Source: Bacteroidaceae bacterium
GTDB taxonomy: Bacteria; Bacteroidota; Bacteroidia; Bacteroidales; Bacteroidaceae
Direction: 5' to 3'
DNA length: 49,085 nt
Assembly: GCA_017615125.1 (NCBI GenBank)
Contig: JAGAAS010000035.1
Span: 1 to 49,085, forward strand
Part shown: positions 18,536 to 22,047 of the stretch, piece by piece
Position numbering within the stretch: the stretch's first letter is position 1
Layout of the letters: the number at the start of each line of letters is the position of its first letter
Notes under the pieces: generated by a model
Database searches by the model: none
What the model saw: the letters and a program-made list of their open reading frames with translations, nothing else
Told to the model about the DNA's origin: nothing
Program-made: the position numbers and the translations under genes

Positions 18536-18598
18536 TATAAAAGCCGCCCCCTTTTATATAAAAGCCAGCCCTTTTTATATAAAAGGCGTCCGCTTTTA
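18536..18598. repeat. 21-bp tandem array A, 3 units
   Basis: Units at 18536-18556, 18557-18577 and 18578-18598. Each opens TATAAAAG and closes CTTTTA or TTTTTA, so each is a partial palindrome; the 6-7 bases between are GC-rich and differ from unit to unit (for example CCGCCCC, CCAGCCC, GCGTCCG). Confidence 0.85.
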
Positions 18599-19090: not shown

Positions 19091-19519
19091 TTAGGAGCGA
19101 GGAGTATTATCGATGACGTAGATGCATTTCCAGTCGGAACTATTGTCGCAGAAATCCACCACGTCAGTCGTCTTTTCCCACTCTATCTGGCTCCCGTCAG
19201 CATAATAGGTGTCACACAACGTGCAAGAAGAGAAATTGTAGTGAATGTTATAGACAGTCTGTGACTTCCAGCTACACTGATACACCTTGTAGTAAGCCAA
19301 AGGATAAGCGTCCTTTTCCAGTTCAGTGACTTTCGTGGCCAGCCATTCCGGCATATCTTCCTTTGCCATCAGCGATGTCAGCGATTTCTCCATAAGTCGG
19401 GGAGTTTTTCCCAGAATCTCGTCGTTCACTTCGTTTCCTTCCAAGTTGTTGTTGCACGATGCGGCTGCGAGACAGATGGCCGCGAAAGCCATCAGTAATA
19501 AAAACAGAGACTTTTTCAT
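19091..19519 (-). CDS. Small Cys-rich lipoprotein of unknown function
   Basis: 142 residues. A lipoprotein signal peptide ends LAAASC (Cys21 lipidated), so the mature protein is about 122 residues, anchored to a membrane and facing the periplasm or cell surface. The mature chain has five further Cys (YQCSW, SCTLC, DFCD, KCIY), enough for two disulfides, and a beta-rich C-terminal half with aromatic repeats (VYNIHYNF, DTYYADGS, WKCIYVID). I recognise no family. It has its own promoter with two upstream direct repeats and its own terminator, and sits just downstream of a TPR membrane regulator with a possible DNA-binding end, which suggests it is that regulator's target. Confidence 0.8.
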   Translation of the reverse strand: MKKSLFLLLMAFAAICLAAASCNNNLEGNEVNDEILGKTPRLMEKSLTSLMAKEDMPEWLATKVTELEKDAYPLAYYKVYQCSWKSQTVYNIHYNFSSCTLCDTYYADGSQIEWEKTTDVVDFCDNSSDWKCIYVIDNTPRS

Positions 19520-19623
19520 TTTGTTGATTAATTAATGGTTAATAAAGTATAGAATTATGGTTACAATAAAAACACAGGAAGAAAAAAATGATGGTAAAAT
19601 AGATAGGATTAATAAATTTGTGT

Positions 19624-19654
19624 CAAATTTATCCCAACTCATTTTGCTATCAAA
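19624..19654 (-). promoter_or_regulatory. Consensus promoter for the lipoprotein gene
   Basis: Minus strand: TTTG (19654-19651), 19-base spacer, TAAATTTG (19631-19624). Both boxes and the spacing are exact. Start near 19617, giving a leader of about 98 bases, longer than for other genes here. Confidence 0.8.
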
Positions 19655-19662
19655 ATATTTTC

Positions 19663-19701
19663 TTGTCTCTTTTTTGAGAATGGTTGTCTCTTTTTTGAGA
19701 A
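19663..19701 (-). promoter_or_regulatory. Two 18-bp direct repeats, 21-bp period: probable activator site
   Basis: TTGTCTCTTTTTTGAGAA occurs perfectly at 19663-19680 and 19684-19701 (plus-strand reading). Each carries TCTC/GAGA arms. The inner copy ends 8 bases upstream of the -33 box of the lipoprotein promoter. Two identical sites two helical turns apart at about -45 to -85 are the layout of a dimeric or tandem activator. The TPR/HTH protein encoded next door is the obvious candidate binder (inference). Confidence 0.7.
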
Positions 19702-19805
19702 AAAACCTAACTAATTGATATCCAAATATAAACATTTATTTCTTTTGTCTGTATTCAAATGAAAAAACAGTTGCTTTTCTTCGATTAATCTTTGATAAGT
19801 GTCTT

Positions 19806-21599
19806 TTAGTCTTTGTAGAACGTCAGGTCTAACCATTCAGGCGTTAACTTAGACCTTAGTTTAGTAGCGCGGCAATAAATAGCATGTTCTGTCGTTCCCA
19901 TACAATAGGCTATTGTTTTTTTCGACAAACCAAGCATAGCGAGACAACATACATAAATATCATCTCTGTTCAAATCAAGGCAGTCGCAATACAGTTGCCA
20001 TTGCAAGTCGGCCATTAGTTCATTCAGCGTTTTCTTCAGTTCTTCCTGCTGTTTTTCTCCCATCATTATTGTTTCCTCTCCTAATTTGTATAGCACGCCC
20101 CACCTGCTTTCTTCAAATCTGGAACGGCTGTTCTCTACCATTGCTTTTCGTGTTTCATAAATATGCGTTCTTTCCTCTGGAATTGGAACAGCTTCCGTTA
20201 TCATTGACACCTCTTGGTCTGATTCCCCTTCCTCAAAAGTGTCTGGGCAAGCCGTATTTTCCATAGCTTGTATTTTTGTATCAGCATCTTCCTTTTGCCA
20301 TTTAGAAACCTTTTTCAGTTTCCTCAATTGCTGCAGAAGAACAACGATAGCAAGAATAGTTAGGAGAAAGAGATTTATGAACATTCTTGTTCTCTTCTCA
20401 AGAGTAGCCTTTTGAGCATGCATTTCATCCTCGTGATCCCTAATGATGGAAGTAATTTCAGCATTTTTCGTGAGCCTGTAAACAGAATCAAGAAGTGTCG
20501 TGTATTTTTCTGTATAATCATGGATAGGTTCGTCCTTTCCCAACAAGAATGATAATTCGGCAAGTTTCCGATACGAGTTACACTGGGAGAATAAATCTGC
20601 TTCGCTGCTTACGGCTGCTTTATGGTAAATGTAGGCCGAATCCAATTCTCCAATGGCATAGAGGACATCTCCTTTCACGGAAAGCCCTGCCGGATTCATT
20701 CCTTTATCACCAACCATCGACTGATATTTATTTATGAAATAGAGAGCCGAGTCGCAGTCATGTCTACCATGTAAATAAATCTTGGCTTTTTGAAACATCA
20801 CGACATCATGGTAAAGAGGTGTCGTCTGGCTGTTATTCCACACATCATCGTAACACGCATTGGCTTCCTCATATTGTTCTGAGCGCATCAAACTCATCCC
20901 CAAGAGATAATCAGCATGCACCATCAAGTCTGAATCGTTCTTTATAGCGCAAAGACGCTTAAATGCCCTTAATTGTTCCAATGCTTTGGGGTACATATAA
21001 TGGATCATGTATAATTTCCCTAGATTCTGCAGACAAAGGGAATAATACCTATTCAATGTGTCAGGAAACAAATCCTTTGCTTTCAGGTTAGCGTCAATAC
21101 CTTTTAAATCTTCCTGCATCAGCGTATAGACACATCCCAAGGTATACCACGCCATTGCTGCGTGGTAGTTTTTGCGAAGCGGAGTGCCGTAATAGTCGGT
21201 AGCGATGCGAACGAGGGAATCGGACGTGAGAGGCTTGTAATTCTTATAATCTGTCTGCGTGCGCAGGATGGCATAGAGCGCAGCCTCCTCGCCGCGCAGG
21301 GCGGAGGAGTCGATGCTGTCGAGCACGGCAGAAGCAGCGCGGCTGTCTGTCTCCATCACCTGCTCGGCCCGCTCCAGCTGCTCCCGCACGGAGGACTTAG
21401 CGCAAGAGAAGAGAAAGACGACAGAGAGAAGACAGAGAATGGAGGACAGAGGACTGCGGACGGAAGACGGAAGAAAGCAGACGGAAGAGGGAGGACAGAA
21501 GCCTACCCTAAATCCCTTCCAAAAGAAGGGACTTTGAATCTTGGGGTAAACATATTTGCGGTTTTTCCCGATGAAAGGGGCTATTCTATTACATTTCAT
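19806..21599 (-). CDS. TPR membrane protein with C-terminal HTH-like segment (putative regulator)
   Basis: About 597 residues from ATG 21599. N-terminus: a stretch of about 45 residues encoded by purine-rich and repeat-like DNA, then a hydrophobic segment ending FLFSC, which may be a lipobox. Residues about 70-370 are helical repeats of TPR type (YHAAMAWYTLGCVYTL, YSLCLQNLGKLYMI, ALYFINKYQSM). One transmembrane helix follows (MFINLFLLTILAIVVLLQQL, about 405-424), then a charged linker and a C-terminal domain with RDDIYVCCLAMLGLSKKTIAYCMG and YCRATKLRSKL, a LuxR/sigma-region-4-like helix-turn-helix pattern. This architecture (periplasmic TPR, membrane, cytoplasmic DNA-binding domain) is common in Bacteroidetes one-component regulators. 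The promoter at 21626-21656 rules out the earlier ATG at 21665. Confidence 0.75.
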   Translation of the reverse strand: MKCNRIAPFIGKNRKYVYPKIQSPFFWKGFRVGFCPPSSVCFLPSSVRSPLSSILCLLSVVFLFSCAKSSVREQLERAEQVMETDSRAASAVLDSIDSSALRGEEAALYAILRTQTDYKNYKPLTSDSLVRIATDYYGTPLRKNYHAAMAWYTLGCVYTLMQEDLKGIDANLKAKDLFPDTLNRYYSLCLQNLGKLYMIHYMYPKALEQLRAFKRLCAIKNDSDLMVHADYLLGMSLMRSEQYEEANACYDDVWNNSQTTPLYHDVVMFQKAKIYLHGRHDCDSALYFINKYQSMVGDKGMNPAGLSVKGDVLYAIGELDSAYIYHKAAVSSEADLFSQCNSYRKLAELSFLLGKDEPIHDYTEKYTTLLDSVYRLTKNAEITSIIRDHEDEMHAQKATLEKRTRMFINLFLLTILAIVVLLQQLRKLKKVSKWQKEDADTKIQAMENTACPDTFEEGESDQEVSMITEAVPIPEERTHIYETRKAMVENSRSRFEESRWGVLYKLGEETIMMGEKQQEELKKTLNELMADLQWQLYCDCLDLNRDDIYVCCLAMLGLSKKTIAYCMGTTEHAIYCRATKLRSKLTPEWLDLTFYKD

Positions 21600-21625
21600 A
21601 TCTAAGCGCCTTGTATATGTTGTCA

Positions 21626-21656
21626 CAAAGATAGAGACTTTTTGGGAAAAAAGAAA
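21626..21656 (-). promoter_or_regulatory. Promoter for the TPR regulator gene
   Basis: Minus strand: TTTC (21656-21653), 19-base spacer, TATCTTTG (21633-21626). Start near 21619, 20 bases before ATG 21599. Confidence 0.65.
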
Positions 21657-21686
21657 GAAACGCACTTTTTTCCTGTCCTTTCCTTA

Positions 21687-21751
21687 CGGAAACAGCACTC
21701 AGCATTCCGCGAAAAGAAGGAACCACTTCCAAAAAAGAAGAAATCACTTCC
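21687..21751. repeat. 21-22-bp tandem array F, 3 units
   Basis: Units at 21687-21708 (diverged), 21709-21730 and 21731-21751. The last two share AAAAGAAG(G/A)AA(C/T)CACTTCC. It lies upstream of the TPR regulator promoter. Confidence 0.65.
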
Positions 21752-21812
21752 CGCCTCAAGCAAAACACGCATTCTTCGTTAGGAACTAGGCATTTTCCTC
21801 AATGAAAAATTC

Positions 21813-21878
21813 AAACGACGCATGCGTCGTTTATAAAAGATGCATGCGTCGCTTATAAAAGTCCCATGCGTCTTTTAC
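21813..21878. repeat. 22-bp tandem array B, 3 units
   Basis: Units at 21813-21834, 21835-21856 and 21857-21878. Arms AAA(A/C)G and CTTTTA/CGTTTAT/CGCTTAT enclose a shared core with CATGCGTC. The arms resemble those of array A although the core differs. Confidence 0.85.
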
Positions 21879-22047
21879 TGCCTCGAAAAAGACGCGCACA
21901 TAATGACGAAGGATTCTCCGTTATTGCACAAATTCCTCAACGAAGTAATTTGGATCTTCGGTTACAAGCAGGCGGCGCCTCGGAATAAAAACACGAATTA
22001 CCCGAATGTCACGAATAAGGGGAAATAACGATATGGTGCTTCGCACC

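Follow-up and report, generated by a model that had tools for sequence, protein, structure and literature searches.

Which protein reads the two perfect 18-bp repeats that lie between a gene for a tetratricopeptide repeat (TPR) membrane protein and a gene for a cysteine-rich lipoprotein, and what do they control? We analyzed this locus on contig JAGAAS010000035.1 of a Bacteroidaceae bacterium (assembly GCA_017615125.1), referring to the whole 49,085-nt stretch of DNA as the window, and compared it with related loci in other genomes. The initial annotation had seen a one-component envelope-sensing circuit together with its target. We consider it likely that the TPR protein (P0001) is a transmembrane one-component regulator with its cognate operator just downstream, activating the gene behind that operator (its cargo), and that it is one of a repertoire of paralogs. 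Of the earlier proposal, the regulator with a cognate operator is thus retained, on the grounds of ortholog sites and a correlation between operator words and the helix-turn-helix (HTH) domain, whereas the lipoprotein would be the target in this genome at most. The wider finding, as read from the comparisons, is a family of regulator–operator modules, each with its own word, whose cargo changes; we see it as a variant of the SusR-like kind.

The regulator, its operator and the lipoprotein

The whole locus is on the minus strand, in the order regulator, two repeats, promoter and lipoprotein:

19806–21599, minus strand: regulator P0001, 597 aa, with TPRs, a membrane helix and C-terminal HTH-type helices (probable lipobox Cys66; membrane segment at about residues 403–428; last HTH helices at about residues 545–584)
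19684–19701, minus strand: operator copy 1 (distal), TTCTCAAAAAAGAGACAA
19663–19680, minus strand: operator copy 2 (proximal), an 18-mer identical to copy 1
19651–19654, minus strand: –33 box TTTG, 8 bp (19662–19655) after the second operator copy
19624–19631, minus strand: –7 box TAAATTTG, separated from the –33 box by 19 bp
19091–19519, minus strand: lipoprotein P0002, 142 aa, lipobox-like AASC at Cys22

The two repeat copies (repeat family D5) are spaced 21 bp from start to start and are the only matches to the 18-mer in the window at up to three mismatches, with 0.04 expected. Bacteroidetes promoters have a –33/–7 consensus, which the window promoter, TTTG-N19-TAAATTTG, matches exactly. 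Coordinates and sequence confirm the initial annotation of two perfect repeats, 21 bases apart and 8 bases upstream of an exact promoter. A genome-wide search found the 28-bp operator core, again at up to three mismatches, at one place in the assembly (G000, 87% complete), and no second operator site was found there with two patterns. In the proximal copy, the start of the AGAGAC word precedes the –7 box by 39 bp; our listing of distances by locus gives 49 bp for the window because it counts from the TTCTCA word. A 67-aa open reading frame (ORF; 19532–19735, minus strand) overlaps operator and promoter, but it is probably not a gene because the –7 box falls within it, and a coding role was rejected.

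The predicted layout of P0001, from its sequence and a fold model (mean predicted local distance difference test score, pLDDT, 86.7), consists of a periplasmic sensor, one membrane segment and a cytoplasmic C-terminal HTH, in agreement with the earlier description of a TPR membrane protein with a cytoplasmic HTH-like end. Residues 403–428 are hydrophobic, with basic residues following them, and cysteine 66 stands in a lipobox-like context and is nearly invariant among 63 aligned relatives; a lipid anchor at the N-terminus and a periplasmic location of the TPRs are therefore probable. The first ~45 residues from the ATG are doubtful (pLDDT mostly below 50), and the orthologs have a signal peptide right after a later methionine. 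From the predicted topology alone, we infer envelope sensing. A Pfam scan at E ≤ 1 returned TPRs and a weak match to DUF6377 and nothing else, and the structure search used the whole protein, so that TPR matches filled the list and the missing HTH matches are uninformative. In NCBIfam, P0001 scored 37.7 bits against BT3442_fam (cut-off 940) and 22 bits against SusR_regulator (cut-off 480), making it a remote relative of the BT3442/SusR kind outside both curated families. The earlier statement that neither protein belongs to a nameable family thus holds for the lipoprotein and, given scores far below the cut-offs, for the regulator, except that these remote matches exist.

Orthologs of P0001 were found in 3 of 18 other genomes of the genus (loci L016, L017 and L018), 53–56% identical in the alignment and 57–59% in the initial search; the next matches in other genomes reached at most 44%, except for a 113-residue fragment in G015 at 80%. 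Directly after the regulator stop codon, all three loci carry two TGAGAT/TGAGAC words 22 bp apart, followed after 8 bp (9 bp in the window) by TTG, N20 and TACCTTTG; the operator of L016 is TGAGATAG. Of 19 genomes searched for the 30-bp pattern of the ortholog operators, with up to three mismatches, G001, G009 and G017 gave a single match each and the 16 others gave none; the same pattern read backward occurred in none of the 19. The window's own genome carries, once, a GAGACAA variant of the operator that the 30-bp pattern misses. By these patterns the operator is single in each genome and therefore looks like a dedicated local switch.

The lipoprotein had been described as cysteine-rich, and this was borne out by the lipobox-like Cys22 and four further cysteines, C82, C99, C102 and C132, that are invariant among five aligned orthologs. 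Its orthologs occur in 4 of the 18 other genomes of the genus, at 62–65% (L011–L013) and 53% (L014) identity, along with one weak match (G016), and none of them adjoins an ortholog of P0001. They are preceded by operators with TGTAAG, TGCAGC or TGCAACG repeats; a regulator with a TGTAAG or TGCAGC word is found in the same genomes, either adjacent (G001, G017) or elsewhere (G009), and we identified no regulator with a TGCAACG word to fit the lipoprotein of L014. Conversely, the operators of the P0001 orthologs precede a gene for an exported protein of 292 aa at L016, an ORF that is short or broken at L017 and ORFs with signal peptides at L018, and this lipoprotein is absent behind all three. 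Because the orthologous operators precede other genes and the lipoprotein orthologs follow other operators, the lipoprotein is not a conserved target of P0001; as judged from these loci, regulator and operator travel together and the cargo changes. P0002 matched no Pfam family and, in NCBIfam, gave three weak N-terminal matches far below the cut-off; no known fold was recognized, the best PDB match having an E value of 0.55 (with a model of pLDDT 70 built from five sequences, which carries little weight), and a pattern scan of viral contigs found no relatives.

Operator layout and words across related regulators

We fetched the surroundings of P0001 relatives and reduced 118 matching ORFs to 76 distinct regulator genes, dropping those without a stop codon in the fetched DNA and those with the same last 60 residues as one already kept. 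Paralogous regulators of this kind are numerous, with up to 20 matches per genome. Within 250 nt after the stop codon, exact 6-mer direct repeats offset by 11 bp were present at 39 of the 76 loci, in comparison with a mean of 3.45 and a maximum of 9 in 20 sets of shuffled sequences. Other offsets gave lower counts (12 bp, 14/76; 10 bp, 11/76; at most 12 in the rest of the 7–44 range), as did controls for the 11-bp repeat upstream of the genes (11/73), inside them (8/76) and 600–850 nt downstream (6/66). The contrast is tempered by offsets of 22, 30, 31, 42, 43 and 44 bp, which lie slightly above the shuffle maximum and far under offset 11, and by 12-bp repeats upstream of the genes at 16 of 73 loci.

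A combined test required a direct repeat (spacings of 10–12, 21 or 22 bp) and a –7 box, TAnnTTTG, 15–60 bp further on. This combination followed the regulator at 43 of 76 loci, with a mean of 0.4 and a maximum of 2 in 50 shuffled sets and 7 cases among 289 natural controls (4/72 upstream, 0/76 and 1/76 inside the gene, 2/65 further downstream). The word started 38–41 bp from the –7 box at 28 of the 43 loci, and the remaining 15 distances of 17–18 (three loci), 28–29 (four), 36 (one) and 48–52 bp (seven) are separated by steps of about one helical turn; one repeat was counted per locus, and the distance may shift by a few base pairs with the 6-mer chosen. Four loci from other genera (L183, L191, L193 and L194) have words 38–41 bp from the box at 21- or 11-bp spacing. 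Among BT3442-type loci, the 11-bp repeat was found in 9 of 28 (30 fetched; mean 1.8 and maximum 5 in 30 shuffled sets), and among further relatives, repeat and –7 box were found in 5 of 14 (15 fetched; L190 doubtful); the layout therefore stands out most clearly in this genus. In one clade (L006, L070, L073, L075, L080 and L081), the cargo starts 13–21 nt after the regulator stop with no operator between them, and regulator and cargo therefore probably form one operon.

We then related the operator words to the HTH sequences. Words were assigned by eye for 62 of the 76 loci, that of L096 from an incomplete repeat, and 63 of 75 regulator references entered the alignment (A1); the TGTAAG-type regulator of G001, split over frames, was left out of the tree. 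HTH identity correlated with the similarity of the by-eye words among 61 proteins (Mantel r 0.51, p 0.0002; L077 dropped as doubtful), a value favored by the manual choice, in which the label of L004, first TGAGAAA, became TGTAACG once the tree was known, and it correlated with objective words, defined as 10 bp at a fixed place, among 43 proteins (r 0.43, p 0.0002). The word was shared by 41 of 56 pairs with at least 80% HTH identity and by 9 of 1,315 pairs below 30%. All 15 pairs that are at least 75% identical and differ in their words belong to a single seven-protein group, where the recognition-helix sequence differs along with the word (TGGGACG, TGTCACG or TGCCACG); even regulators at 84–91% HTH identity have different words together with different recognition helices.

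Besides the manual words, several observations weigh against the proposed reading. P0001 has no Pfam HTH match, GerE and Sigma70_r4_2 included, and such matches are few among the 63 relatives (Sigma70_r4_2 in four, GerE in three). Its words are 21 bp apart (22 bp in the orthologs), unlike the usual 11 bp, and repeats of 21 and 22 bp show no excess after the stop codon, where they number 6 and 10 among 76 loci, as against 13 and 8 among 73 upstream and 12 and 12 among 76 within the gene; support for the window site thus comes from its conservation in orthologs. The wide spacing may represent the 11-bp pattern minus its middle word, and three relatives (L036, L074 and L095) have three words. Each operator copy contains a dyad that makes the half-site ambiguous, and as the 30-bp pattern misses the window variant, diverged sites elsewhere might escape it too. 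Fourteen of the 76 loci have no assignable word, six of them being those with cargo 13–21 nt after the stop. Within the seven-protein group, a few other HTH positions also differ, and the repeat of L103/L105 is imperfect (TGCCACG, then TGCAACG). Words and clades do not correspond one to one, TTGCAGC, TGTCACG, TGGGACG and TGTAACG each occurring in more than one clade, and a TTGCAGC pattern, which spelled the flank as well as the word, matched two of the five genomes with a TTGCAGC-labeled regulator (G003 and G009; G001, G006 and G015 were missed). Finally, related loci are not independent, and the genomes are incomplete metagenome-assembled genomes.

Cargo, possible regulons and the 5′ cassette

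Cargo genes were assigned by a rule that errs on some starts: at the window locus (L001) it picked the 67-aa ORF, and we set the cargo by hand to the lipoprotein, while the L017 cargo in the homology comparison is the short ORF. A crude signal-peptide rule was passed by 49 of the 73 cargo proteins. In Pfam, run on 60 of the 73, the most common families were DUF3244 (22/60), to which we take the BT3441/BVU_0276 protein (PDB 3d33) to belong, and LRR_5 (15/60), followed by two outer membrane protein barrel families (two each), a type IX secretion sorting tail (two) and a serpin (one). SusC and SusD families were not among the 12 Pfam families of the 60 proteins, distant targets being covered by the operator scan only. 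Cargo was homologous in 28 of 80 same-word pairs and in 187 of 1,631 different-word pairs; regulators with the same word share cargo more often than others, yet in a minority of pairs, and the P0001 clade, with 0 of 6, is extreme.

Some clades appear to control more than one site. The search for TGTAAG-type sites yielded five in G001, three in G009, four in G017 and none elsewhere, and each of the three genomes has such a regulator. These sites precede genes for lipoproteins and other exported proteins, several of them in trans. In G003 and G009, TTGCAGC sites are present on either side of the regulator, upstream as well as downstream. Together these placements suggest autoregulation and small trans regulons in the two clades. 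At L004, at the end of contig C6 of the window's own genome, the cargo promoter carries the TGAGAAA operator of the L002 locus besides its own-looking dyad, and it is possibly cross-wired. Behind several different operators (L002, L005 and L048), the first gene encodes a small membrane protein of 86 aa (MDKADFTFL...), and related ORFs are present in L103 and L105.

The regulator gene itself looks mosaic:

21016–21999, minus strand: 5′ cassette of P0001, comprising up to 400 bp of upstream sequence and the first ~140–195 codons

This cassette has 83–88% DNA identity to four paralogs in the same genome, with limits that differ by paralog: for L002 and L004 the match begins in the upstream region, and for L003 and L005 it lies in coding sequence. 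Beyond it no blastn match was found, which points to recombination or gene conversion and suggests that a constant 5′ part has been joined to a variable sensor and HTH. A short dispersed element resembling GCCC(A/C)TTTCATCGGG recurs by regulators and promoters (window ~21560–21595, L002, L013 and L014); the copy in P0001 is translated into a stretch of the doubtful N-terminal residues. Palindromic units of 21–22 nt, three in tandem, flank the locus on both sides (18536–18598 and 21813–21878), and a similar array lies near the lipoprotein ortholog of another genome (L014, ~2745–2820).

Proposed mechanism, alternatives and known systems

Building on the operator, its geometry, co-occurrence and covariation as read from sequence and on the predicted topology, we propose a mechanism in which binding, activation, ligand and oligomer are inferred. 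A lipid anchor would hold the N-terminus of P0001 in the outer leaflet of the inner membrane, and the periplasmic TPR superhelix would sense a ligand, perhaps a peptide or protein. A single long helix would pass through the membrane to the C-terminal HTH in the cytoplasm, which would bind the operator just behind its own gene, with two HTHs placed on one DNA face, two helical turns apart. With the proximal word lying against the –33 box and starting 39 bp ahead of the –7 box, the HTHs would most likely help RNA polymerase, and the bound regulator would switch on the exported cargo, here the cysteine-rich lipoprotein. Most paralogs would each use their clade's own word, arranged in the same way, and regulator and operator would evolve as a single module while cargo is exchanged.

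The same regulator–operator pair might instead act by repression, released by the ligand, as the consensus –33 and –7 boxes of the window promoter might fire unaided. We give this a small chance: the operator lies upstream of the –33 box and not over it, as expected of an activator touching the polymerase; among the 28 loci where the operator is 38–41 bp from the –7 box, 10 lack a TTG 17–27 bp before that box, as expected of activator-dependent promoters; and SusR, the nearest characterized relative, is an activator according to passages of PMC3878776. It is improbable that the repeats are bound by another, unlinked transcription factor and that the TPR neighbor is a bystander. The weak recognition of the HTH by profiles would allow this, regulator binding being read from sequence, but each genome with an ortholog has the operator once and the 15 genus genomes that lack an ortholog gave no match, the words track HTH similarity, and the TGTAAG-type sites found are all in genomes with such a regulator.

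Two further explanations do not involve a DNA-binding protein. That the repeats form an RNA structure, a terminator or attenuator of the regulator gene, seems very improbable and was rejected: at L004 and L005 the operator is indeed accompanied by a strong dyad and a T run and may double as a terminator, but the folding of the window site is unremarkable (z –1.45, with 18 of 200 shuffles as good), a terminator scan gave no site at the repeats, and 11-bp repeats at a fixed distance from a –7 box are untypical of terminators. A chance repeat would be easier to obtain in an AT-rich region such as this (GC 0.30–0.36); given the 0.04 matches expected in the window, we rejected it as next to impossible, and a very similar site stands at the same place in three orthologs of 53–56% protein identity.

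Returning to the activating regulator with its own operator, we see about an even chance for a broader interpretation, in which the genus keeps a natural library of insulated membrane one-component switches. Recognition helix and a private 6–7-bp word would change together within a fixed promoter geometry (words head-to-tail, one or two turns apart, ~39 bp to the –7 box), cargo would move between switches, and the homogenized 5′ cassette suggests that recombination still yields new specificities. If true, this would be a portable wiring system for surface proteins. Independently of this interpretation, a DNA code is readable from the sequences of these loci and the word position is fixed relative to the promoter, so that the specificity of the regulator class could be tested with few swaps; the modules are also candidate orthogonal regulator–promoter pairs for commensal Bacteroidota, and their layout is one in which genes for surface proteins switch controller between species.

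Searches of the open-licence PubMed Central literature brought up no title or abstract with this operator geometry. The closest known system is the SusR-like family (NF058541), for which passages of PMC3878776 describe an inner-membrane one-component protein with a periplasmic sensor and a C-terminal HTH, as predicted for P0001, and direct-repeat operator motifs that correlate with HTH similarity, as here. The two differ in that P0001 reaches 22 bits where the cut-off is 480, that the centers of the SusR-type repeats are predicted to lie 67 or 77 bp apart (same passages) in contrast with 21 bp in the window, 22 bp in the orthologs and 11 bp in most repeat-bearing relatives, and that the cargo consists of single exported proteins, often DUF3244 or LRR_5, in place of SusC/SusD-type polysaccharide genes. 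Hybrid two-component systems resemble the window in direct-repeat operators ~21 bp apart and in uniting a membrane sensor with a DNA-binding domain in one protein (passages of PMC3878776). P0001 differs from them in having no kinase, receiver or AraC-type domain among its Pfam matches. The RRNPP peptide receptors of the Rap and NprR type are cytoplasmic, with the HTH, where present, at the N-terminus; in P0001, the TPRs have a lipobox ahead of them and the membrane helix after them, with a predicted periplasmic location, and the HTH is C-terminal.

TPR–membrane–HTH proteins are common in the family, with BT3442 profile matches in 111 of 151 genomes, and 48 of the 63 P0001 relatives match this profile at E ≤ 0.01. 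The match of P0001 to the TPR protein family NF053779 covers residues 361–586, the membrane part and HTH, at 37.7 bits, under the cut-off of 940. In Bacteroides thetaiotaomicron, BT3442 is a TPR protein heading a cluster of exported proteins, an arrangement shared with the loci studied here, and BT3441 is homologous to BVU_0276 (PDB 3d33); the passages of PMC2954219 that report this state no regulator role for BT3442. The BT3442-type loci over or near the cut-off (L131–L133) have no repeat at the tested spacings. A longer-spaced direct repeat follows the regulator there, TGTCTATGCATAAG occurring twice in L131, and may represent another operator geometry.

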